A stretch of 64,000 nt of DNA, taken from the NCBI GenBank assembly GCA_016125275.1, contig WGMB01000003.1, positions 310,001-374,000 of the forward strand, given 5' to 3'. The position numbers and the translations under genes are program-made. The notes under the pieces were generated by a model. That model searched no databases and was not told the DNA's origin. It was given only the letters and a program-made list of their open reading frames with translations. Position 1 is the stretch's first letter. Each line of letters opens with the position of its first letter. Source of the stretch: Acidobacteriota bacterium (GTDB taxonomy: Bacteria; Acidobacteriota; Terriglobia; Bryobacterales; UBA6623). Below are positions 18,559 through 30,729 of this stretch, in pieces.

Positions 18559-19326
18559 CTAGCGCGGCGCCAGCACGGAGTCTTCGGCTGGCTGCAGGAC
18601 TTCCATCTGCGGGTGCTGCGCTTGGAGCTGGGCCAGCGTGGTCTCCTCCCAGCGCAAGGGGTGGATTTCGCGGCCTGCCAGAGGTCCCAGCAGGGCCTCT
18701 CCGTCGGCCTGCGCCCACCAGGAGTGGGTCTGCTGGTCTTCGAGCACCAGGTTGCCGTTGGCGAAGCCGGCGATGCGGAAGGTCAAAGGCTTGCCGGGCT
18801 CGAGCTCCGCGCGCCAGATCTCCGGCGCCTTGCGCACGCTGCACCAGGTGACCGCGACGGGCGTTCCTCCGGCCGTGGTGTTGACCACGTGGTGGAACTG
18901 CAACAGCCGTAGGGGGTAGGCGCGGTCGCCTTCGTCGCCGTGGGCCACCAGCAGCTTGTCGTCAGGCTCCAGGAACTTCACCTCAGCCGCCGGAATGTAG
19001 CCCACGGCCTCCATCGGCCGAAAGATCTCTTCCAACAGGTTCGAGTTGGCCACGAACGCGCTCAAGCCCAGCAGGATCAGCGCGGGGACGGACAGCAGCT
19101 TGCCCCACAGGCCGCCGAGCGTCCAGCGGCGCATGCACAGCAGCGCGCCGGCGGCCAGCGACATCATGGCCAGCACAGAGCCCCAGCCGGTCCGTACCGA
19201 GTAGGCGAACTGCAGCTCGGTGGCGCTCTGCGGACGCGCCGGGTCCATCACCCACCAAGGCGCCACGGCCATCGCCGCTGACGACGCGATCAGCAGCACG
19301 ATCAGAGCCCATTCCAAACGTTGCAT
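18559..19326 (-). CDS. Membrane-anchored DUF3179 protein with altered cysteine motif
   Basis: Protein of 255 residues with three hydrophobic N-terminal segments (ALIVLLIASSAAMAVA, GSVLAMMSLAAGALLC, VPALILLGLSAFVAN). A DUF3179-like domain follows from about residue 105. Characteristic phrases are TFRIAGFANGNLVLEDQQTH, SWWAQADGEALLGPLAG and the closing LQAQHPQMEVLQP. The CPLCG-type cysteine pair usual in DUF3179 proteins is here reduced to TWCSVRK, with a single Cys near 163. Fusion to membrane segments is also unusual, since most DUF3179 proteins are lipoproteins or periplasmic. TACACT at 19339-19344 (minus) just before the ATG is a likely -10 box. The gene ends 10 nt from the convergent alpha-toroid gene. 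Function unknown. Confidence 0.7.
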   Translation of the reverse strand: MQRLEWALIVLLIASSAAMAVAPWWVMDPARPQSATELQFAYSVRTGWGSVLAMMSLAAGALLCMRRWTLGGLWGKLLSVPALILLGLSAFVANSNLLEEIFRPMEAVGYIPAAEVKFLEPDDKLLVAHGDEGDRAYPLRLLQFHHVVNTTAGGTPVAVTWCSVRKAPEIWRAELEPGKPLTFRIAGFANGNLVLEDQQTHSWWAQADGEALLGPLAGREIHPLRWEETTLAQLQAQHPQMEVLQPAEDSVLAPR

Positions 19327-19424
19327 CGAAGAACTTCCAGTGTAGCCATAACCCCGCTTGCCTCAGCGCTTCCCGAACCGCGCCTAGGGCATTCCCCGGA
19401 GGGCCCTACGGCCAGGGTCTCTCC

Positions 19425-19451
19425 TATGATCGAGGGCGGAGGACGGACCGC
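19425..19451 (+). promoter_or_regulatory. -10 box and ribosome site of the 58-residue membrane protein gene
   Basis: A good -10 hexamer TATGAT lies at 19425-19430 and a GGAGG ribosome site at 19438-19442, 9 nt before the TTG start at 19452. No convincing -35 box was seen 17 nt upstream of TATGAT. Confidence 0.5.
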
Positions 19452-19628
19452 TTGGCCAAGAGTGGATATACGCCCGTTAGCAGTTTCTGGGCCGTAATCG
19501 TTCCGGCCGTACTGGGGGGAGTCCTGTACTACGGCTACACCACGCCGAGCTGGGTCGGCGTTCGCATTCAGAAGCTCTTCGGACCGGTCGTCGAACCGAT
19601 CCTGCACTTCTTCCACCGCATCGTGTGA
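19452..19628 (+). CDS. Small membrane protein, 58 residues, unrecognised
   Basis: A short open frame starting with TTG and ending at TGA (19626-19628), in the gap between the divergent DUF3179 gene and the convergent ABC permease gene. It is preceded by TATGAT and GGAGG in the right order and spacing. The product begins MAKSGYTPVSSFW and continues with one hydrophobic stretch (AVIVPAVLGGVLYYGY). It then has a tail with a basic residue pair and aromatic residues (WVGVRIQKLFGPVVEPILHFFHRIV), which could form a second amphipathic helix. The composition is that of a single-pass inner-membrane protein, not of a random frame. I do not recognise the family. The support is the start signals plus the product's composition. 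No partner is evident. Confidence 0.6.
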   Translation: MAKSGYTPVSSFWAVIVPAVLGGVLYYGYTTPSWVGVRIQKLFGPVVEPILHFFHRIV

Positions 19629-19643
19629 GCAGGCCGTCGCGGT

Positions 19644-21335
19644 CTATTCCAGACGCAGGAGCTGGATCAGCTCGCCGGACTCCTCGAAGCGGATCTCCGA
19701 CGCAGGGGCGCGCACCCAGCGCACCGCCAGCCACAGCGCCGGCGCCAGCAGCAGCAATCGCCAGGGAAACTCCGCCACCCAGGCCTCCAGGGACGCGAAC
19801 GCGCCGCCGTAGACGAACATGCCCACGGCGCAGAACGTCCAAGGGATGATCACGTGCGGCCTGCCCGCCAGGTAGCGGCAGGCGAAGGGGATCTTGCCCA
19901 GCCGCAGCAGAGCCGCTTCCACCGTCAACCAGGAAGCCAGCAGCCACACCGGCAGCCGCCACAGAGCGTCAGCCGGGGAGACGCAGGCCGCCACGACGGG
20001 CGTCGCCGCCAGGGCCAACGGCAGCGGCCCCACCGCCCACAAGGCTTTTCGGACGCCTCGCAGGTAGCGCCGGCTGTCCGGCTGCAAGTGGAACCGGAAC
20101 GCCCAGGTGGCGGCGAGGTCGCCCGGCATCGCAAAAGCCATCCGGATGCCGGCCAGCAGCAGGAACAGCAGGATGTACGGCTGGGCGCGGGCCGCCTCCA
20201 CCCAGTCGCCGCGGCGTCCCCAGGCCGTCCAGATCTGCGCAAAGGCCACGGCGCAGCCCACGGCTAGGAACAGGCCCGCGTGAAAGCGGTGGCGGGGGCT
20301 CCGCAGCAGGGTCCGCAGCGTGAACAGGTAGGTGGCGAGCTCCAGCCGGTCCGGCAGCCAGCGCTCCAGGAGCGCCCACCGAAGCCGCCGCAGGGCTGCG
20401 CTGCCGCCTTCCCGCGTGGCCGTCTCCTCCAGGGAGCGCACGATGAAGCGCCGATACGTCCCCAGATAGACGCCGACGGCCAGCCCCAGGGTCAGCGCGA
20501 GGCCCGCCGCCGCCATGGCCGCCAGCGGAGCGAAGGCGGCGCCGTGGCCGGCGCCCCATTCGCCCAGGCCCGCGAACCAGACCGGCGGCAAGCCCAGCAT
20601 CCAGCTCGACGAACGAGCCATCTCCGCCGCCGTCGACCCCGTCGCCATCAAGCGCCCGCGCAACACGGGGACGGTCACCACGAAGATGACGAACCCCGTG
20701 GTCAGCAGCGACTGAAACACGACCGACGCCCGGGCGTAGACTCTCGCCGGCAGCAGCGCCGTGAGCAGCCCTTGCAGCCCTGCCACAAAGCCGACCGTGG
20801 CCGCCGCCGAGGCGCACAGGCACAGCCAGTGCGACAGCGTGAACGCCAGCCCCTCCACGACGCCGGCCCGCCATGGAATGACCGCCAGCGGGTAGAACAG
20901 GGCGGCGAAGCCGTTGACCAGCAGAAAGAACAGGCCCAGAAAGCGCACCAGCGCCCGAGCCTGCGCGCCGAACAGCTCCGCCACCGTCACCGGCTGCGGT
21001 CCCAGGATGAGATAGTCTCGGCGGTCGGGAAAGAGCCTATCCCACTGCAGCGTCGTGATCAGGCCGATCACGCCCATCTGGAAAGCCACCCAGAAGAAGC
21101 GGTCGCCGAAGCCGTGCGCCATCCGGACGGACTCGGGCGCCCGGGCCAGCAGCACGTAGTATTTGGGGATCCAGTAGAGCGTGAGCATCCCCGGAAAGAC
21201 CAGCATCGCCATGACGTTGGCGGCGGCCAGTTGCGGGTCGTCGGGGTCCGAGACGAGGTCGTTGAAGAAGAACCGCTCGTAGAACAGCTCGGTCAGCCGG
21301 GCGCCGCGCGGGCCGGAGTCGAACAGGCGCCTCAT
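19644..21335 (-). CDS. ABC transporter permease, about 12 membrane segments
   Basis: Polytopic membrane protein of 563 residues. Many hydrophobic segments are evident, for example VMAMLVFPGMLTLYWI, VAFQMGVIGLITTL, FLGLFFLLVNGFAALFY, FVIFVVTVPVL and LAAMAAAGLALTLGLAVG. It overlaps the upstream ATP-binding gene by four bases (ATGA at 21335-21332), implying translational coupling and a shared complex. There is no detectable substrate-binding protein and no MacB-type periplasmic domain, so it looks like an ABC-2-type or exporter-like permease of unknown cargo. The family could not be named. The call as the membrane partner rests on context and topology. Confidence 0.75.
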   Translation of the reverse strand: MRRLFDSGPRGARLTELFYERFFFNDLVSDPDDPQLAAANVMAMLVFPGMLTLYWIPKYYVLLARAPESVRMAHGFGDRFFWVAFQMGVIGLITTLQWDRLFPDRRDYLILGPQPVTVAELFGAQARALVRFLGLFFLLVNGFAALFYPLAVIPWRAGVVEGLAFTLSHWLCLCASAAATVGFVAGLQGLLTALLPARVYARASVVFQSLLTTGFVIFVVTVPVLRGRLMATGSTAAEMARSSSWMLGLPPVWFAGLGEWGAGHGAAFAPLAAMAAAGLALTLGLAVGVYLGTYRRFIVRSLEETATREGGSAALRRLRWALLERWLPDRLELATYLFTLRTLLRSPRHRFHAGLFLAVGCAVAFAQIWTAWGRRGDWVEAARAQPYILLFLLLAGIRMAFAMPGDLAATWAFRFHLQPDSRRYLRGVRKALWAVGPLPLALAATPVVAACVSPADALWRLPVWLLASWLTVEAALLRLGKIPFACRYLAGRPHVIIPWTFCAVGMFVYGGAFASLEAWVAEFPWRLLLLAPALWLAVRWVRAPASEIRFEESGELIQLLRLE

Positions 21336-22102
21336 GGCCTTGCCGAGACGGCCTCCAGGATCTCGCCGGCGATGCGGTCGGTGTCCTCATCGATCACCAA
21401 CTGCGCGAAAACGTCCTCCAGGGAGGGAGACTGCATCAGGTCGCGCAGGGCGTCCACCGAATCGTGGGCGGCCACGCGCCCCTTGCGCAGGATCAGCACG
21501 CGGGTGCAGATCTTCTCGACGGTCTCGAGCGCGTGGGAGCTGTAGACGACCGTCTTGCCGGCCTGGGCCAGCCGCCGCACGAGGTCTCGAAAGATCAGCG
21601 CGGAGGTGACATCCAGGCCCGACAAAGGCTCGTCGAACACCAGCAGGGGCGGGTCGTCGATTAGCGCCGCCGAGATCAGGATCTTCTGGCGCATGCCCTT
21701 GGAGTACGACGAGATGCGCGCGCCGCCGTCCGACCCCAGCGAGAACAGCTCCAGCAGCCGCCGGATCAGCGGCTCCAGGCGGCGCCCGGGGATTTCCCGC
21801 AGGCAGCCGATCAGCTCCAGATACTCCCGGCCGCTGAGGTAGTTGTACAGGTCGGGGGCCTCGGGCACGTAGCCCATCCGACGGCGATAGCCGGTCAAGT
21901 CGTCCCGAATCGGCTGATCCCGGAACAGGATCAGGCCTGTGGAGGGCTCGAGCAAGCCGGTCAGCATCTTGACCGTCGTGGACTTGCCGGAACCGTTCGG
22001 CCCCAGCAGGCCCAGGATCTCGCCGGGCTTCACGATGAAGCTGACCGACTGCACGGCGGGGATGCGTGCGTAGAGCTTCGACAGTCCGCGAGCTTCCAAC
22101 AT
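21332..22102 (-). CDS. ABC transporter ATP-binding protein
   Basis: ATPase subunit of 256 residues. The Walker A motif GPNGSGKST is near residue 37, the Q-loop region is MGYVPEAPDLYNYLSGREYLE, and the signature loop reads SYSKGMRQK in place of LSGGQ, common in ABC-2/CcmA-type ATPases. Walker B with the catalytic Glu is LLVFDEPLSGLD, and the switch His lies in VVYSSHALETVEK. It resembles the NatA/CcmA/YhaQ group of ATPases that pair with ABC-2 permeases. The gene begins 6 nt after the ADOP-like gene and overlaps the permease gene, so the three form one unit under the PadR regulator. Confidence 0.92.
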   Translation of the reverse strand: MLEARGLSKLYARIPAVQSVSFIVKPGEILGLLGPNGSGKSTTVKMLTGLLEPSTGLILFRDQPIRDDLTGYRRRMGYVPEAPDLYNYLSGREYLELIGCLREIPGRRLEPLIRRLLELFSLGSDGGARISSYSKGMRQKILISAALIDDPPLLVFDEPLSGLDVTSALIFRDLVRRLAQAGKTVVYSSHALETVEKICTRVLILRKGRVAAHDSVDALRDLMQSPSLEDVFAQLVIDEDTDRIAGEILEAVSARP

Positions 22103-22108
22103 AGCCGT

Positions 22109-23500
22109 TCAGCCTCCCACGCTCGTCGACGACGCGCTCGCGCCCAGCAAGGCGTCCCACCAGTCGGCCGTACGGCTCCAAGAAGGCTCCCTGACGCCCT
22201 CGGAGGTCGGCTCCGGCCGATACAAGGTGCCGTGCCCGTAGGCGCAGATGTACTCCACCGCCGGCAGGTCGAAGAGGATGCTGCCGGTGACGCCCAGGGT
22301 CAGCGGCATGGCCAGATCCCTATGGCAGACGGGGCAGCGGGTCTGCTGATCGGCCACGACGCGCCAGACGATGGCCGTGAGCAGCAGCGCGAGCAGGTAC
22401 CCCGACACCAGGAACCAGACCTTGGAGAAGTAGCCGACCGACACCAACGCAGCGCTCTCCATCGCCACCGTCCACAGGATGGCCGGCGCAGCCAGCACCG
22501 GTAGCCCCTTCGCCAGCAGGAACAGGTAGCTGCGCGCCAGCAGCCGGAAGCCCTTGCGGCAGCCGCCCAGAGCCCTGCCCAGCGCCGCCGCCTGCGCCAA
22601 CCCCAACACGGCCAGCAAGCAAACGGCGAACTCGAACAGCGCCACGGCGGCCGAAACCGTTCCGCGGCAAACGTCTCGGTAGGCCACCAGCGCCACGCTG
22701 CGCTCAGCCGCCTTCGGCGGCTCGCCGCCGCGGAGCAGCAGATAGGCGGCCGACCAGCGATCGGCCTCCCCTTCCCCGACGATCCAGAGCGACCGCGAGC
22801 GGTCCAGGAACCAGTACTCCCGCGCCGCCACGCCGCAGATCGGAAGGGTTTCGCCGCTCACTGAAACCGTGCGGCCCGCCACGGAGGGGTCCGCGCCGAA
22901 CTGGTTCCGCCACAGGCGGTCTCCCAGGACCAGGCACGGCGCGCCGGCGGTTTCGACTGAGCCCAAGGCCAGGCGGACGCCTTGCAGCCGGAAGAAGCCG
23001 CTCGAGACGCGGAACCCCAGCGCCTCCGCCGGGCCGTCCGCCGCTTCCAGCCGCGCCGCGATGGGCCGGAAGGCCGCCGTGAATTGCGGGAATTGCCTGG
23101 CTACGGCGAAACCATAGGCGTCGGGCCGCTGGGAGACCGACAGAGAGCTGGGGTCCTCCACCGGCAAAGGCCGCAAGTGATGGGCCAGCAGGAGCAGCGC
23201 CAGCACGGGCGGGGTGACGACGGCGGTCGCGGCCAGCGCCAGCGTCTTGGCGCGCCGAACCTCGACCGGGCTCGCCTCGCTGCGGGGACCCAAGGCGCTC
23301 AGGCAGTCCCGCGTGATCGCCCGGCGGTCGCCCAGCCGGGCCGCCGCGGCGGCCTTGGCTTGGCGGCGGCTCGACCCCGCGGCGGTCTCGTCGGCGGCGG
23401 CTTGCTCCAGGTGAAACCGCAGTTCCTCGGCGACGCGGAGCCTGAGCTCGCGCCGCTCGCGCCACTGCAACAGCAGGATCCAGGGCCAGGACGACGGCAT
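22109..23500 (-). CDS. Reduced ADOP/MacB-like permease with C-terminal cysteine motif
   Basis: Protein of 463 residues. The N terminus (WRERRELRLRVAEELRFHLEQAAADE, written here from its key part) and the phrase AARLGDRRAITRDC match the N-terminal region of Acidobacterial duplicated orphan permeases (ADOPs). A single MacB-type periplasmic core domain follows one membrane segment: SSGFFRLQGVRLALG, LVLGDRLWRNQFGADPSV and GRTVSVSGETLPICGV. Two or three membrane segments come next, then a cytoplasmic-looking tail with CPVCH and CAYGH, a possible metal site. Normal ADOPs are about 800 residues with two FtsX domains, so this is a half-size, altered form. The start at 23500 shares one base with the PadR stop codon (TGATG). 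Its place between PadR and an ABC ATPase suggests a sensing or accessory role. Confidence 0.72.
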   Translation of the reverse strand: MPSSWPWILLLQWRERRELRLRVAEELRFHLEQAAADETAAGSSRRQAKAAAAARLGDRRAITRDCLSALGPRSEASPVEVRRAKTLALAATAVVTPPVLALLLLAHHLRPLPVEDPSSLSVSQRPDAYGFAVARQFPQFTAAFRPIAARLEAADGPAEALGFRVSSGFFRLQGVRLALGSVETAGAPCLVLGDRLWRNQFGADPSVAGRTVSVSGETLPICGVAAREYWFLDRSRSLWIVGEGEADRWSAAYLLLRGGEPPKAAERSVALVAYRDVCRGTVSAAVALFEFAVCLLAVLGLAQAAALGRALGGCRKGFRLLARSYLFLLAKGLPVLAAPAILWTVAMESAALVSVGYFSKVWFLVSGYLLALLLTAIVWRVVADQQTRCPVCHRDLAMPLTLGVTGSILFDLPAVEYICAYGHGTLYRPEPTSEGVREPSWSRTADWWDALLGASASSTSVGG

Positions 23501-23826
23501 CACTTCAGATCCAGAATGCTGCCCATGACCGCGGAGACGCCGAGCCAGTTGGCCTCTTCCTGAGCGAGCTGTCGGCCGCCTTCGTCGCTCAGGCGATAGA
23601 CCCGGGCGCGGCGTCCGTTGTCGGTCTTCTGCCACTCGGACTCGATCCAGCCCTTGCGCTCCATGCGGTACAGCGCCGGATAGAGCGACCCTTCCTCGAG
23701 CAGCAGACGGCCGTTCGAGGCAGCCTGCACGCGCTGTGAGACGGCGTAGCCGTGCAGGGGTTCGATCGACAGCACCTTGAGGACGATCAGATCGAGCGTT
23801 CCGGGCAGGATGTTCAGCTTGGTCAT
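23500..23826 (-). CDS. PadR-family transcriptional regulator
   Basis: Winged-helix regulator of 108 residues with the PadR hallmarks: GTLDLIVLKVLSIEPLHGYAVSQRV, LEEGSLYPALYRMERKGWI, then RARVYRLSDEGGRQL. Acidobacterial ADOP permease genes are commonly headed by a PadR gene of this type. It is first in a four-gene operon and its stop codon overlaps the next start by one base. A perfect inverted repeat lies between its promoter and start codon, so autoregulation as a repressor is the likely mode. The ligand is unknown, although PadR proteins often respond to phenolic or toxic compounds. Confidence 0.92.
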   Translation of the reverse strand: MTKLNILPGTLDLIVLKVLSIEPLHGYAVSQRVQAASNGRLLLEEGSLYPALYRMERKGWIESEWQKTDNGRRARVYRLSDEGGRQLAQEEANWLGVSAVMGSILDLK

Positions 23827-23840
23827 TTAGACGCTCTATG

Positions 23841-23855
23841 CTTAGATTGTCTAAG
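23841..23855. promoter_or_regulatory. Inverted-repeat operator in front of padR
   Basis: CTTAGA-TTG-TCTAAG is a perfect inverted repeat with 6-bp arms. It sits 15 nt before the PadR start codon and just downstream of the predicted -10 box, overlapping the expected transcription start. This is the position of a repressor site, and the PadR protein is the natural candidate to bind it. Confidence 0.6.
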
Positions 23856-23857
23856 TA

Positions 23858-23887
23858 ACTCTACGCTGGTCCGCGGCGGGCTGTCAA
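23858..23887 (-). promoter_or_regulatory. Promoter of the PadR/ABC operon
   Basis: On the minus strand, consensus TTGACA (23887-23882), an 18-nt spacer and TAGAGT (23863-23858). It points toward padR and overlaps neither the RND terminator hairpin nor the operator. Confidence 0.65.
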
Positions 23888-23932
23888 CAAAAAGAAAGAG
23901 GGGGCTTCGCCGGTGCGGCGAAGCCCCCTCTT
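23885..23932 (-). terminator. Strong intrinsic terminator after the RND pump gene
   Basis: A 16-bp perfect stem (23896-23911 with 23917-23932, core GAGGGGGCTTCGCC) closes a GGTGC loop. On the minus strand it is followed by a T-rich run (CTTTCTTTTTG), 21 nt after the stop codon at 23954. It isolates the RND gene from the PadR operon. Confidence 0.9.
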
Positions 23933-23953
23933 GTTGGTTCATCGAGCAGCGAG

Positions 23954-26900
23954 CTAGTCGCCGGCCGCCGGAGCCTCGGTCATCTCGCCGACGCCCAGCC
24001 GCTGCTGCTCGCGCCGCCAGCCGCGCTCTTCCAGCAGCATGTAGACCGCCGGAATCACGACCAGCGTAATCAGCGTGGAGCTGGTCAGCCCGCCGATGAC
24101 GGTGCGCGCCAGCGGCGCCTGCAACTCGCCGCCCTCGCCCAGACCCAGGGCCATCGGCACCAGACCGAGCACGGTCGTCAAAGTCGTCATCAGAATCGGC
24201 CGCAGGCGACGGGCGCCGGCGGTGATCACGGCCTCCCGCGGCGAGTAGCCGTGGTCGCGCCGCAACTGGTTGGCATAGTCGATCAGAACGATGGCGTTGT
24301 TCACCACGATGCCCACCAGGATGATGACCCCGAGGAAGGCCTGCATGTTGAAGGTGGTGTCGGTGAGCAACAGGGCCAGCACGACGCCGACCGTCGCCAA
24401 CGGGGCCGAGAACAGCACGATGAACGGGTCGCGCCAGGACTCGAACTGCGCGGCCATAACCATGTAGACCAGCACCAGCGCCAGAATCGCCGCGAAGGTC
24501 ATCTGATCGAAGGCCTCCACCTGCTCCTCGTACTCGCCGCCGAAGCGGATCTCATAGCCGGCCGGCCGCGAGATTTGCGCAATGGCGCCTTGCAGGTCGG
24601 TGACGATGGCGCCCAGGTCGCGGTCCTGGATGTTCGCGCTCACCACGACGATGCGCTCCTGGTCGCGCCGGTCGATCTGCGTCGGCCCCTCCTGGCGAGT
24701 CATGTTCACCACGCTGAGCGCGGGCGTCGTCCGCCCCGAGGGCAGGTTCAGCGGCACGTCGGCGATCTGGTCCACGGCCAAGCGGTCGGGCTCGCGTAAC
24801 CGAATCAGGATGTTGTACTCGTCGCCTTCCTGGCGATACATCGACGAGCGGCGCCCGCCGACGGCCGTCTTGAAGGTCTCGGCGATCGTGAACACGTTCA
24901 GGCCCATCGAAGAGGCCTTGTCGCGATCGACCTCGACCACCATCTCGGGCAGGCCCGCCCGCTGGCTGGTCTGGGCGTCGGCCACGCCGGGCGTCGCCAC
25001 CATGGCTTCACGCACCTGCTCGGCCAGGCTCTTGAGGATCTCCAGGTTGTCGCCGCGGACCTCCACCGAGAGGCGGTCGCCCTGGTTGGAGCCGGTGGAG
25101 CTCGAGCGCCGATACATGCCGCTCGACACGCTCGTGCGCACCAGCATGCCGGGCCCGATCTGCATCATCGGACGGATCTCGTTGGCCACGTCGAGGGCCT
25201 TGCGGCTGCGCTGGCGCTGGTCCACCAGACGGATGCGGAGCTCGCCGGAGTTCTGGCCCTGCGCCGACGAGAAGCCGCCGCCGCCGGACTCGATCATGAT
25301 CGTCTGGACCTCGGGCACCTTGTCCTTCACGATCCGCGCCAGGTGCTGCAGCATGTCGTCGGTGACTTCGACGCGGGTGCCGGGCTCGAGCTCCAGGTTC
25401 ACGCGGATCTCGCCCTCGTCAACCTCGGGCTGGAGCTCGACGCCGATCAGCGGCATGATCTCCAAGGCCATCAGGAACAGCAGGGCCGCACCGCCCAGCA
25501 CGGTCCAAGGACGGCGCAAAGCGCCGTCGAGCAGGTCGCCGTACCAATCGCCGAGCTTGGAGATCCAGGCGGCGCAACCGCGCAGGGTCCGCTGGAAGAT
25601 GTTGCCACGGCCCACCTTGGAGTGCTCCAGCATGCGCGAGGTCATCGCCGGCACCACCGTCAGAGCCACGATCAGCGAGCACAGCAGCGAGAACGACACG
25701 ACGTAGGCCAACTGCTGGAAGGTGACCGCCGACATGCCCTGCGTGAACAGCACGGGCACAAACACGGCGACCGTGGTCATGGTCGACGCGGTGATCGCCG
25801 TGGCGACCTCCTTGCTGCCGGTGATGGCGGCAGTGCGCGCATCGGCGCCTTCCTCGCGGTGGCGCACGATGTTCTCGAGCACCACGATGGCGTTGTCCAC
25901 GAGCATGCCGACGCCCAGCGCCAAGCCGCCGAAGCTGACCGTGTTGAGCGAGAAGCCAGCGAAGTACATGAGCGCGAAGGTGGCGATGACCGAGACCGGG
26001 ATGGCTACGCCGATGACGAACGCGCTGGAGAAGCTGCCCAGGAAGACCAGCAGCACGCCCACGGCGAGCAGGCCGCCCTGCCAGGCCGAATCGCGCACGT
26101 TCGCGATGGCCGCCTTGATGAAGTCCGCCGAGTCGCCGGTGGTCGAGATGTGAATGTTGGGGTAGTCCTTGTGGATGCGGGCGACCTCGGACCAGACGCC
26201 GTCCGAGACCTGCACGGTGTTGGAGCCGGACTGCTTGTAGACGAACAGACGGACGGCCGCCTGGCCGTCGACCGACACCATCTGTCGCACCTCTTCGTGC
26301 GAGTCCTCGACGGTGGCGATCTCCCGCAGGTAGACCGGCACGCCGTTGCGCACCGACACCACCACGTTACGGATCTGTTCCAGCGTGGCGAACTCGCCCT
26401 TGGTGCGCAGCAGCACCTCGTAGCGGCCCTCGCGCACCGGACCGACCGGCTCGTTCAGGTTCTCGTCGCGCACGATGCGGACCACGTCAGCCACGTCCAG
26501 GTCCAGCGCGCGGAGCTTGTTGAGCTCCAGGTCCACGTGGATTTCCCGGCGCAGGCCGCCGCGAATGGTGAACTGGGCGACGCCGGGAACGCGCTCGAGC
26601 CGGGGCTGCAGGCTCTTCTCAGTGAAGTGCCGCAATTCCTTGGGGTCCATGTCGTCGGCGGCCACCGTCAGGAACATGATCGGGAACTGCGAGACGTCGA
26701 ACTTGTACATGACCGGCGGCTCCATGTCCTCGGGCAGGTCGCCGCGACGACGGTCCAGCCGGGCGCGCAGCTCATTGGCCGCCTCGTCGAGATCGATGCC
26801 GTAGTTGAAGCCGACGCGTACGTAGGCGTTGCCTTCCGAGCAGGTGGAGGTGATCTCCTTGACGCCCGGGGCGGCCGAAAAGGCCTCTTCGAGCGGACGC

Positions 26901-27091
26901 GCGACCAGCGTCTCCATCTCCTCGGGACCGACGCCGGGGTACTCCGCCCGGGCGCTGATCGTGGGATAGACGGTCTCCGGCATCAGATCCACCGGAATCT
27001 TCACGAAGGCGATGGCGCCGAGCAGGATGGCCAGCAGACAACCGACCGAGACGGTCACCGGTCGATTGATCGAGAACTCAGGAAGACCCAC
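23954..27091 (-). CDS. RND-family efflux pump, inner-membrane subunit
   Basis: AcrB-like resistance-nodulation-division transporter of 1045 residues, the usual full length. The N terminus [20 protein letters not shown], the [18 protein letters not shown] block, the periplasmic repeats and the closing [20 protein letters not shown] are all typical. In membrane helix 4 the motif reads [13 protein letters not shown] (near residue 400), with Asp-Asn where AcrB has Asp-Asp. The GTG start at 27091 is supported by GGAGG about 8 nt upstream. No membrane-fusion or TolC-like gene is next to it, so partners must be elsewhere. Substrates cannot be predicted, and the HAE1-type drug/hydrophobe class is the closest. 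Confidence 0.93.
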
Positions 27092-27308: not shown

Positions 27309-27998
27309 TCAGAGCGCGTCGTCGTCGAACGGCGACGACGACGGGTCCGGGGCCTTGCGGCGGTCGAGCAAGCGGTTGACGCCGTCGGCCAGGCTCTGGA
27401 TCTCCGGGCTCTCGCTGTGGATCGAGCAACGCCGGAAGAGGTCTCCCTGGCGGGCCACGTTCACCACGTTGGCGATCTCCAGGATCGGCATGACGAACAC
27501 CCGGTCGGCGCGCCGCGCCATGAACTGCACCAGCAGAAAGGCGATGAGCGCCAGCATGACGGCCGCCCAAGCGCCGGCCCGGGCCAGCCGCTGGGCGTCC
27601 TCGTCGGCCCGGCGGAGGGCCTTGCGGTTGATGTCGGCGAGCTCGGTCAAGGCCCGCAGCACCCGGTGGCGCGCCGCCGGCTCGCCCTCCAGGGCCTGCT
27701 CGGCGTCGGTGCGAATGGCCTGCAGGAGGGGGCGTTCCTCGTCCTCGGTGACGTTCTTGTCGGCTCGCGCATAGGCGGCCAGAAAGGCCTTGGGCGCCTC
27801 GTCGTCCTCGGAGGGCGGCGTCGCCAGAGCCCCCAGCATCTGCTCGACGGCGGACAGGGATTCCACGTTCTCCTCGGCCACGTTCGCGATCGCCGGCCCC
27901 ATCCGCGAAAGCAGCGCGATCGCGCCGAACGAGGTCGCCAACTGCACCGCCAGGATGAGCAGGAACACCGTCCGGCTCTGCCGCCGTAGGGCCATCAT
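27309..27998 (-). CDS. Membrane protein with periplasmic helical domain and HAMP-like region, no output domain
   Basis: Protein of 229 residues. One membrane segment is at residues ~10-32 (FLLILAVQLATSFGAIALL). A mostly helical, acidic periplasmic stretch of about 110 residues follows, then a second segment (AGAWAAVMLALIAFLLVQFM). A HAMP-like linker (PILEIANVVNVARQGDL through SLADGVNRLLDRR) comes next, and the protein ends about 15 residues later. This is the layout of a four-helix-bundle sensor without kinase, cyclase or methyl-accepting domain. The start ATG at 27998 overlaps the TrkA stop (ATGA), so it is translationally coupled to potassium uptake. A role in sensing or modulating Trk is inferred only from this position. 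Confidence 0.7.
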   Translation of the reverse strand: MMALRRQSRTVFLLILAVQLATSFGAIALLSRMGPAIANVAEENVESLSAVEQMLGALATPPSEDDEAPKAFLAAYARADKNVTEDEERPLLQAIRTDAEQALEGEPAARHRVLRALTELADINRKALRRADEDAQRLARAGAWAAVMLALIAFLLVQFMARRADRVFVMPILEIANVVNVARQGDLFRRCSIHSESPEIQSLADGVNRLLDRRKAPDPSSSPFDDDAL

Positions 27999-28657
27999 CG
28001 CGACGCGCCCACCAGCCGCGCGATGGCGCTCTTGCGCGCCACGACGATCATGATGTCGTCGGCTTCCACTTTCTGATCCGGGGTGGGCAGATGGACGTCG
28101 GGGGCTCCGGCGCGGCGGGTGGCCACGATGGTCACCGAGAAACGCGCAGGCAACTTCAGCTCGGAGAGGGTCTTGCCCACGAACTCTTCCGGCGGCTGCA
28201 CCTCGGCGACGACCAGATCGCCGCCCAGCGGCAGCTCGCCCTTGAGCCTCTCGAAGGCGAACTGATCGGCAAAGCGGGCGCCGAACTCCTCGAGCGGGTT
28301 GATGACCTCGTGGGCGCCGACCAGCTTGAGGATGCGCCCCTGCAAGGGACTGTTGGCGCGAGCCACGATGCGGCGGCCGCCCAACTGCCGCAGCAGGGCC
28401 GTGCATAGGATGGAGGCCTCGCTCGATTCGTCGCCGATGGCGCAGACGCACAAGTCCCGATCCGCCGGACGCACCTTCGACAGATCCTCCTCGCTGGTCG
28501 CGTCCAACACGATCGCCTCGGCGGCGAACGCAGCCACCGAGTCCACCCGTTCGGGCTTGCGGTCCACGGCCAGAATCTCCACGCCGCGCGAGCTCAAGGC
28601 CTTCGCCAGGCTCATGCCGAACCGTCCCAGCCCGACGATCAAGACCTGCTTCTGCAA
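27995..28657 (-). CDS. trkA: TrkA/KtrA-type potassium uptake regulatory subunit (RCK)
   Basis: Cytoplasmic gating subunit of 220 residues for a Trk/Ktr potassium transporter. An RCK_N Rossmann domain starts with VLIVGLGRFG (G9, G11, G14), carries the acidic nucleotide-ribose contact in LAVDRKPERV, and continues to DQFAFERLKG. An RCK_C domain follows (GDLVVAEVQPPEEFVGKTLSEL to DDIMIVVA). One RCK_N/RCK_C pair of about 220 residues fits KtrA better than the double-length E. coli TrkA. The start is TTG at 28657 with a GGAGG site 5 nt away. TrkH lies 32 nt upstream, and the HAMP gene overlaps its end. Confidence 0.92.
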   Translation of the reverse strand: MQKQVLIVGLGRFGMSLAKALSSRGVEILAVDRKPERVDSVAAFAAEAIVLDATSEEDLSKVRPADRDLCVCAIGDESSEASILCTALLRQLGGRRIVARANSPLQGRILKLVGAHEVINPLEEFGARFADQFAFERLKGELPLGGDLVVAEVQPPEEFVGKTLSELKLPARFSVTIVATRRAGAPDVHLPTPDQKVEADDIMIVVARKSAIARLVGASR

Positions 28658-28689
28658 AATTCCTCCCTCCTACTCCGGCGCGCGGGCGC

Positions 28690-30729
28690 TCAGCCCACGT
28701 CGATCGGTTCGGCCGGATGCCCGGACTCCCGCACCGACTCCCGCGACGAAAGAAACGCAAACAGTGACAGCGGCCCCACCCGGCCGGCGAACATCGCGAA
28801 GACGATCACGATCTTACCCACCACGTCGAGCGCGCCGGTTCCGCCGATGGTCAACCCGACCGTCGCAAGCGCCGAGACGGCCTCGAAAGCGGCCCACTCC
28901 ATGGGCATCACCTGGGTGAGCAGCAGGGCCAGGATGATCAAGAACAAGGTGCCCAGACCCAGCGTGACGATCGCCGCCGCACGGTCGACTGTTTCCGTCG
29001 GAATCCGCCGCCCGAAGGTCGCGGCTTCCTTGCGTCCGCGGATCGCCGTCAGCACCGACAGGGCCATGACCGCCGCCGTGGTGGTCTTGATGCCGCCGGC
29101 CGTGCCGCCCGGGCTGCCGCCGATAAACATCGAGATCATCATCACCAGCAAGGTCGAGGGCTGCACGGCCTCGAGCGGGATCGAGTTGAACCCGGCCGTG
29201 CGCAGCGTCACCGACTGGAACCAGGCGTTGTGCAGACGGTCCATGGTCGATAGGTCGGCCAGGGTCCCCTGCCACTCGAAAGCGGCCACCAGCACGAAGT
29301 CCAGTACCAGCAGGATCGCCGTCACGGCCAGCGCGATCTGCACCTGAGCCCGCCGCTCCTTACCCCGCAGCACGTTGGGAACGGCCAGGGCGGCGGCGGG
29401 CGAGAGGCCGCCGAGGATGATCAGCGCCGCCACGACGTGCAGCACGCCGGGATTGGTCTGGTAGGGGATCAGGCTGTCCGTCTGGAGCGCGAAGCCGGCG
29501 TTGCAGAAGGCCGAGACCGAGGTGAACAGGCCGCGCCACACGGCCTGCGGCAGGCTGTCGCCGTCGAATCGAAACATCGTCGCCAGCAGCGCCGCGCCGA
29601 TGGCCTCGGTGGCGAAGGTGAACGTGAGCAGCCGCCGCAGCACGAATTGCAACTGGCTGCGGTCGGCCGCGCTGAGGCTCGACGCCACCGCGCGCTCCTC
29701 GCGCAGCCCCAGCCGTTTGCCCAGCGTAATGATGATGGCCGCGGAGTAGCTCATGATGCCCAGCGCGCCGAGCTGGATCAGCAGCAGGATCACCGCCTGG
29801 CCCCACAAGGTGAAGTCGTGCGGCGTATCCAGCGTGATCAGGCCCGTCACGCAGACCGCGCTGACGGCCGTGAACACCGCGTCGATCCAGTGCACTCCGC
29901 CCTGGACCGTGGTGGCCCAGGGGGCGAACAGGAGCAGCGAGCCGCCCGCGCAGAGCAGCAGAAAGGAGGTTACCAGCGGCCCGGCCGGATGCTGCTGCAG
30001 CAGCATCGCGGGGCTCTCGGCGGCGGACTTCCGCTCGTTGGAAGGGATGACGACCAGAGCGGAGGCGACCAGCAGGATGTGGCCGGCCACCGCGCCCCAC
30101 AGCCAGTAGAGCCCAGCCGAGGCGGCCGTCAGGGCCACCGCGGTCAGCGCCAACCGCTGCCGCTCCTCCAGGATCTCGGTGGCCCAGCGCAGCAGCATCC
30201 CCGCCGCGACGGCAAAGCCGGGGAGGACATGGAAGCGGTCGGCGACGCCAAAGCCCACGCTCAGCGCCACCGTCGCGGCGGCGGCCGTGAGCGTCGCCGC
30301 GCGCGCCGCCGTGCCGGCGAGCTCGCCGCGGGTGGGAATCAGCGCGCGGGTGCGCAACAGCAGCGGATCGTCGGAGTGCCAGGCCTCGAAGACGATGCCC
30401 ACCGCCAGCAGCAGCACGGCCAGGGTGAGGCTGGGGCTGTCAGCCAAAGCCGGCGCGAGCGAGAGCGCCACGCCGACCACCCCGACCGTCAACAGCCCTT
30501 GGTCCCAGGTGCGGTCGGCCCGCGTGGTCAGGCCGCCGAGGGTGACGGCCGCGCAGGCCGCCAGCAGTGACCAGGGCTGCGGGAACCAGCCGGTCTGCTC
30601 CAAGGCGCCGATCGAATCGCCGAAGGCGTAGGCGTAAGGCCCCAGCGCCGCCGTCGTCCCGGCCAGCGCCGCGATCGCGGGCCCCGGGTGCATCAGCGTG
30701 CGCCTGGACGGATTCACGTGGGTCGCCAT
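28690..30729 (-). CDS. trkH: TrkH/KtrB-type potassium transporter with long N-terminal membrane extension
   Basis: Membrane subunit of 679 residues. All four pore loops of the SKT superfamily are present, each with its filter glycine: SAVCVTGLITLDT, SAFCNAGFALQTD, LRTAGFNSIPLEA and SALATVGLTIGGTG. The GGSPGGTAGGIKTTT segment before the third membrane-pore repeat is also conserved. KtrB/TrkH proteins are usually 440-490 residues. Here about 230 extra N-terminal residues form six or more predicted membrane segments (ALLAACAAVTLGG, LTVGVVGVALSLAPAL, LTLAVLLLAVGIVFEAW and others). TAAGAT at 30756-30751 (minus), 21 nt before the ATG, is the likely -10 box. First gene of the Trk operon. Confidence 0.92.
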   Translation of the reverse strand: MATHVNPSRRTLMHPGPAIAALAGTTAALGPYAYAFGDSIGALEQTGWFPQPWSLLAACAAVTLGGLTTRADRTWDQGLLTVGVVGVALSLAPALADSPSLTLAVLLLAVGIVFEAWHSDDPLLLRTRALIPTRGELAGTAARAATLTAAAATVALSVGFGVADRFHVLPGFAVAAGMLLRWATEILEERQRLALTAVALTAASAGLYWLWGAVAGHILLVASALVVIPSNERKSAAESPAMLLQQHPAGPLVTSFLLLCAGGSLLLFAPWATTVQGGVHWIDAVFTAVSAVCVTGLITLDTPHDFTLWGQAVILLLIQLGALGIMSYSAAIIITLGKRLGLREERAVASSLSAADRSQLQFVLRRLLTFTFATEAIGAALLATMFRFDGDSLPQAVWRGLFTSVSAFCNAGFALQTDSLIPYQTNPGVLHVVAALIILGGLSPAAALAVPNVLRGKERRAQVQIALAVTAILLVLDFVLVAAFEWQGTLADLSTMDRLHNAWFQSVTLRTAGFNSIPLEAVQPSTLLVMMISMFIGGSPGGTAGGIKTTTAAVMALSVLTAIRGRKEAATFGRRIPTETVDRAAAIVTLGLGTLFLIILALLLTQVMPMEWAAFEAVSALATVGLTIGGTGALDVVGKIVIVFAMFAGRVGPLSLFAFLSSRESVRESGHPAEPIDVG

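Follow-up and report, generated by a model that had tools for sequence, protein, structure and literature searches.

A candidate PadR-controlled ABC export operon with a half-ADOP/zinc-ribbon mosaic protein in a Bryobacterales genome

ADOPs (TIGR03434) are a large protein family in Acidobacteriota, recognized by MacB cores and FtsX domains, two of each, with no dedicated ATPase encoded nearby, and it is puzzling how they can act with no ATPase. A periplasmic core of the MacB fold occurs in type VII systems (MacAB-TolC, LolCDE, YbbAP), and type V exporters include ABCG1/2, NosY and the mycobacterial efflux pump 8k1m-8k1p, which we take to be Rv1217c-Rv1218c. For regulation, LmrR-LmrCD is an earlier case of an ABC drug pump controlled by a PadR that represses its own operon (PMC4534193). 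The locus described here resembles it in having a PadR repressor gene with an ABC exporter and a promoter palindrome, whereas LmrCD is heterodimeric and the exporter of our locus is read as type V. To our knowledge, no membrane accessory protein accompanies LmrR-LmrCD.

The window (the whole 64,000-nucleotide stretch analysed) comes from a 7.55-Mb genome of Bryobacterales, Acidobacteriota. It contains four genes arranged head to tail on the minus strand, all with open frames, in the order padR, half-ADOP, ABC ATPase, permease:

23500..23826, minus strand: padR, PadR-family repressor, 108 aa (PF03551 9.2e-22; TIGR03433 128.3 bits)
22109..23500, minus strand: half-ADOP/zinc-ribbon mosaic membrane protein, 463 aa, 4 TM (MacB_PCD 3.6e-7, ADOP 7.6e-15)
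21332..22102, minus strand: ABC ATPase, DrrA/GldA-like, 256 aa (PF00005 6.2e-27)
19644..21335, minus strand: single-chain 12-helix permease, read as ABC-2 (type V), 563 aa (AlphaFold and VIA-align fold)

The tight packing described in the initial annotation is borne out, with 1 nt common to padR and the half-ADOP gene (TGATG), 6 nt between the half-ADOP and ATPase genes, and a 4-nt ATGA overlap between the ATPase and permease genes. The host genome encodes 24 full-length ADOPs and 14 padR genes of the TIGR03433 type. Because 13 of these adjoin a full-length ADOP and the 14th, that of the window, adjoins the half-ADOP gene, the latter pair resembles a remodelled padR-ADOP cassette to which an ABC pair was added, a history that we infer from this arrangement. 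No other permease locus examined has precisely the gene order of this operon. The operon is real, but its general kind is already known. Around it, an AcrB-type RND pump gene (23954-27091, minus strand), closed by a strong terminator, lies directly upstream, and genes for TrkA-like and TrkH-like potassium uptake proteins occupy 27309-30729 (minus strand) together with a 229-aa gene without assignment. A DUF3179 protein with N-terminal membrane helices is encoded downstream of the operon (18559-19326, minus strand), and a possible gene for a 58-aa single-helix membrane peptide (19452-19628, plus strand) is convergent with the permease gene.

The second protein of the operon, of 463 residues, begins with a prefix; a MacB-type core follows between TM1 and TM2, and a 2-TM module carrying a CxxC/CxxGH motif completes the chain. 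Its parts are as follows:

23303..23467, minus strand: permease prefix domain 1, residues 12-66, predicted cytoplasmic (NF038403 30.3 bits, cut-off 30)
22658..23185, minus strand: MacB-type periplasmic core, about residues 106-281 (Foldseek and VIA match to MacB)
22211..22354, minus strand: zinc-ribbon-like motif CPVC...C-x2-GH, about residues 383-430, predicted cytoplasmic side (conserved Cys pairs)

It had been described initially as a small ADOP relative with a MacB-type domain and a C-terminal CPVCH/CAYGH cysteine pair, a structure lacking such a domain being named as evidence to the contrary. The domain was found by sequence as well as by structure, with one MacB_PCD match (PF12704 31.1 bits, cut-off 27, E 3.6e-7), and with a core that in the AlphaFold model (pLDDT 72) aligns to MacB (Foldseek E 1.5e-7) and to 3ftj (VIA Z 12.0, rmsd 3.8 over 167 residues). 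The N-terminus is ADOP-like, and the prefix domain, the MacB-type core and the TIGR03433-type PadR neighbor are features shared with ADOPs. Unlike an ADOP, the protein is of half length, has a single core, no FtsX and a zinc-ribbon tail, and shares its operon with an ABC ATPase and permease of its own, the ATPase gene starting only 6 nt downstream. The FtsX domain was found in none of 40 half-ADOP relatives at E 0.1, and the match to TIGR03434 covers residues 108-240 only and reaches 54.1 bits against a cut-off of 622.3. On these two grounds the identity of a small ADOP was rejected: the protein is a mosaic of an ADOP-like N-terminus, a MacB core and a 2-TM zinc-ribbon module, and not an ADOP. 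It also differs from MacB and other type VII proteins in having neither the FtsX/NBD coupling region nor a fused ATPase, and in its partner permease being read as type V. In the tree, it sits on a long branch (2.37) and is not grouped with other ABC-linked half-ADOPs. Among the papers searched, the ADOP phrase occurs in one only, a species description of Dyadobacter.

The two cysteine motifs are present at residues 389-393 (CPVCH) and 419-423 (CAYGH). C389, C392, C419 and H423 are invariant in all 40 fused relatives, as are both Cys pairs and the GHG, which the free small proteins keep as well; one relative gives a weak zf-LITAF-like match. Judged by these conserved Cys/His knuckles, the C-terminal module is a zinc ribbon that presumably binds zinc. 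Loop charges predict a cytoplasmic location for the prefix and the cysteine motif and a periplasmic one for the core. A reading of the cysteines as a periplasmic redox pair was considered and rejected, given the predicted cytoplasmic side and a zinc-ribbon pattern common to the free proteins. The latter, of ~145 aa and two TM segments, are homologous to the C-terminal third of the half-ADOP protein but stand alone; in many Bryobacteraceae (L089, L093, L097, L100 and others) they have no Pfam match and are encoded beside a PBP1A-like gene, which we take to be a class A penicillin-binding protein. At 17 loci, the free protein was never found near padR or an ABC pair.

The ATPase shows the expected motifs in its sequence, GPNGSGKST (Walker A), YSKGM (signature), LLVFDEP (Walker B) and the H-loop, and scores 95 bits with PF00005 and 197 bits, below cut-off, with drrA. 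Its partner permease has no Pfam or NCBIfam match, the same being true of Pfam for all 26 family members searched, and no sequence relatives of it were detected in the PDB. The lack of a Pfam ABC-2 match counts against placing it in those sequence families but leaves its fold class unaffected. The AlphaFold model (pLDDT 88.3, pTM 0.89) consists of two six-helix halves, in agreement with the ~12 segments proposed at first; hhalign detected no internal duplication at the sequence level (probability 0.2), and therefore the statement on two halves rests on the fold only. With VIA-align, residues 8-301 match ABCG1 at Z 14.9, the first half matches ABCG1/ABCG2 and NosY at Z 14.0-14.9, the top rows are chains of ABCG, NosY, ABCA and KpsM (Z 11.9-14.9), and the whole chain aligns to 8k1m-8k1p at Z 10.8-11.6 over 423-436 residues. 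Foldseek gave nothing below 0.001 (best 0.09), and the assignment to type V relies on the VIA-align Z-scores and the coherent list of matches, not on Foldseek E-values. On this modelled fold, the permease is read as a single-chain type V (ABC-2) exporter. It differs from the known ones in having no detectable sequence relation to them, in the proposed extra accessory protein of the operon, and in belonging to a family that is recurrently fused to ADOPs and to beta-lactamase-type and hydrolase domains.

This family was found in 124 of 257 Bryobacterales genomes and is widespread in Acidobacteriota (65 of 396 sampled genomes), yet it is absent from Pfam. At nearly all permease loci examined an ATPase gene adjoins the permease gene. 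A scan of named genomes with the window permease alone as query returned no match, and with close relatives as queries it returned 34 loci, nearly all of them Acidobacteriota according to their record titles. One locus titled Acidimicrobiia (L160:8001-9671) has an ATPase-permease-PadR-ADOP row of Acidobacteriota-like character, possibly a misnamed bin or a transfer. Within the family, we identified 17 in-frame permease-ADOP fusions (L084, L112, L113, L269-L275, L277-L283), in which the ADOP is mostly full-length; only one (L278) has the reverse order with the ADOP first, and in three of the fusions Pfam confirms MacB_PCD plus FtsX. In other members (L105, L108, L109, L261), a single membrane-domain loop, close to residue 150 of the permease model, harbors an inserted serine beta-lactamase-type domain (PF00144), and in L082 and L284 the permease has an alpha/beta hydrolase at its C-terminus. 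The permease family thus repeatedly gains extra domains, and the window does so through a separate protein.

Linkage between the zinc-ribbon protein and the pump varies between lineages. In Bryobacterales, an ABC pair lies within 4 kb of seven of the 42 distinct half-ADOP/zinc-ribbon loci, where by our estimate about 1% or less would be expected by chance, with few pairs per 6-7 Mb genome. The initial annotation had proposed that homologues found mostly without the ATPase/permease pair would speak against it, and this is the situation in Bryobacterales (35 of the 42 genes), whereas it is reversed in Acidobacteriaceae (our reading of family f4 in the phylum sample), in which the zinc-ribbon protein is encoded beside the ABC pair in 14 of the 16 genomes that carry it, counted with or without a MacB core. 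There, padR and the zinc-ribbon gene usually form one unit, with ATPase-permease running divergently on the other side of a small gap, commonly 55-90 bp. Copies with such linkage occupy about five lineages of the permease tree; most ABC pairs at the permease loci examined have no half-ADOP/zinc-ribbon protein. This repeated pairing in related genomes suggests that the partners may form a real working complex. Among loci of the Acidobacteriaceae type (L329/L342), genome G488 keeps the half-ADOP/zinc-ribbon gene but has a shortened permease gene (392 aa), and G583 keeps the half-ADOP/zinc-ribbon gene with no permease found near it.

The regulatory region of the window lies between the RND gene and padR:

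23896..23932, minus strand: intrinsic terminator of the upstream RND (AcrB-type) gene (17-pair stem, 12 G-C pairs, T-rich tail)
23858..23887, minus strand: core promoter TTGACA-18-TAGAGT (sole sigma-70-like site in 19300-24100)
23841..23855, no strand assigned: perfect palindrome CTTAGA-CAA-TCTAAG (CTTAGA-N3-TCTAAG), putative PadR operator (unique in the genome)

By its predicted stem, the terminator insulates the operon from the upstream RND gene. The proposed promoter was confirmed, one sigma-70-like site being observed in 19300-24100 against 0.2 expected from shuffles. The palindrome, which spans the expected transcription start, is likewise as perfect as had been claimed, and its role as an operator is putative. 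In a pattern search, CTTAGA-N3-TCTAAG occurred once in the 7.55-Mb genome, even when one mismatch was allowed, and the reversed pattern, used as a control, gave six matches per strand. None of the 13 other TIGR03433 padR genes of the host has a CTTAGA-type operator with the window sequence; close to the promoters of several of them there are inverted repeats with sequences of their own. At the host padR-ADOP loci L314, L318, L319 and L325, the inverted repeats around the promoters differ from one another, as if the operator were specific to each PadR.

With 128.3 bits against a cut-off of 101.8, the PadR of the window is of the ADOP-linked TIGR03433 type, whereas the PadRs of the relatives score below this cut-off. 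For these relatives, boxes were surveyed in 2.25 Mb of fetched loci, many of which are related by descent, so that the counts are not independent events. Seventeen divergent loci with a zinc-ribbon gene carry inverted pairs of CTATGTAG...CTACATAG, although one of the 17, L243, has only a single clear copy. The 8-mer CTATGTAG is rare, with 65 matches in the fetched loci. Of the 119 ATPase genes, 28 have a CTATGTAG/CTACATAG box upstream, as do 23 of the 67 padR genes; the corresponding figures are 9 of 1613 for unannotated genes and 0 of 118 for permease genes, and shuffled box words gave at most four upstream matches. The CTATGTAG box is also present at co-directional operons headed by the ATPase gene (L233, L236), at orphan padR-half-ADOP cassettes (L088, L241, L341) and at ABC pairs without a zinc-ribbon neighbor (L087, L114, L343). 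Genome G305 has its cassette and its ABC pairs at distant sites, yet the box is common to them (L341, L343, L293). In the relatives, one PadR-type box is found at the PadR cassette as well as at the ABC pair, and it fits the ATGT-N8-ACAT motif of PadR proteins (PMC5050560). Across whole genomes, CCTATGTAG occurs at 5-15 sites in each of six genomes, gene assignment being limited to sites at fetched loci. The window's own genome, one of the six, has five CCTATGTAG sites, none of them near the operon, and the operator of the window differs in sequence from CTATGTAG; therefore, the evidence for a regulon comes from the relatives only.

We lean, with moderate confidence, towards reading the operon as a PadR-repressed ABC exporter with the half-ADOP/zinc-ribbon protein as its membrane accessory subunit. 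Gene order, domains, folds, repeated linkage and the operators common to relatives are the direct observations behind it. The proposal of a regulated, self-contained ABC export operon is supported, and an accessory relation of the mosaic protein to the pump gains support from the repeated linkage, the common operator and the ADOP-permease fusions. In such a system, PadR would bind the palindrome over the transcription start and keep its own operon off, until a small amphipathic molecule, the presumed ligand, releases it and turns the operon on, as for LmrR with LmrCD (PMC4534193). One permease chain would assemble with two copies of the ATPase into the pump, because the single chain carries two fused type V transmembrane domains. 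The mosaic protein lacks FtsX, the part through which type VII permeases contact the ATPase, and for this reason it would be an accessory rather than a pump subunit itself. Its MacB-type core would reach into the periplasm and receive, sense or gate a compound that is presumably exported, while the prefix and the zinc ribbon would lie in the cytoplasm, where they may contact the ATPase or PadR.

It is possible, although rather unlikely, that the conserved unit is instead PadR plus the half-ADOP protein, which would sense envelope stress or a periplasmic compound and signal to PadR through its cytoplasmic zinc ribbon, the ABC pair being a mere regulated output that it does not touch. PadR is indeed the more frequent neighbor in Bryobacterales, with padR within 400 bp of 16 of the 42 half-ADOP/zinc-ribbon loci versus seven for the ABC pair; in the host, the 13 other TIGR03433 padR genes all stand beside full-length ADOPs, and orphan PadR-half-ADOP cassettes carry the CTATGTAG box of distant ABC pairs (L341, L343, G305). 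However, 26 of the 42 genes have no adjacent padR, the permease-ADOP fusions speak for a physical partnership with the pump, and LmrR, which among the PadR proteins of ABC pumps has been studied most closely, itself binds drugs (PMC4534193). We consider it improbable that the half-ADOP is a coincidental neighbor, that is, a decaying ADOP which lost one half, has a zinc-ribbon tail instead and plays no role inside an ordinary ABC operon. The abundance of ADOPs (24 full-length in the host), the divergence of the window protein and the variable gene order would be in line with this, but about 40 loci preserve the mosaic architecture together with invariant Cys pairs, the link to an ABC pair is found repeatedly, in about five lineages of the permease and in the 14 Acidobacteriaceae genomes, and the frames of the window overlap tightly and remain open. 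A mechanotransmission or lipid-remodelling machine instead of an exporter, in which the ABC pair extracts membrane lipids and the periplasmic domain or an attached hydrolase processes them, has in its favor the family permeases with beta-lactamase-type or alpha/beta hydrolase domains and the example of YbbAP-TesA, a known ABC-hydrolase complex (PMC12646458), but is very improbable here, as the window permease has no hydrolase and its fold belongs to type V (ABCG/NosY-like) rather than to type VII.

Returning to the exporter with a membrane accessory subunit, a specific ABC exporter as the partner of ADOPs is hinted at by the mosaic protein and by the fusions of ADOPs to the permease. The divergent Acidobacteriaceae versions are found in complete or near-complete genomes, which makes the idea open to gene removal. 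Tentatively, and as a doubtful generalization, the orphan ADOPs of Acidobacteriota, which number two dozen in this genome and have no known energy source, might be the extracytoplasmic partners of the Pfam-less type V exporters, with the operon, the 17 fusions and the PadR boxes as aspects of one modular machine. If this were true, a modular export machine would couple a periplasmic domain of type VII origin with a pump of type V.
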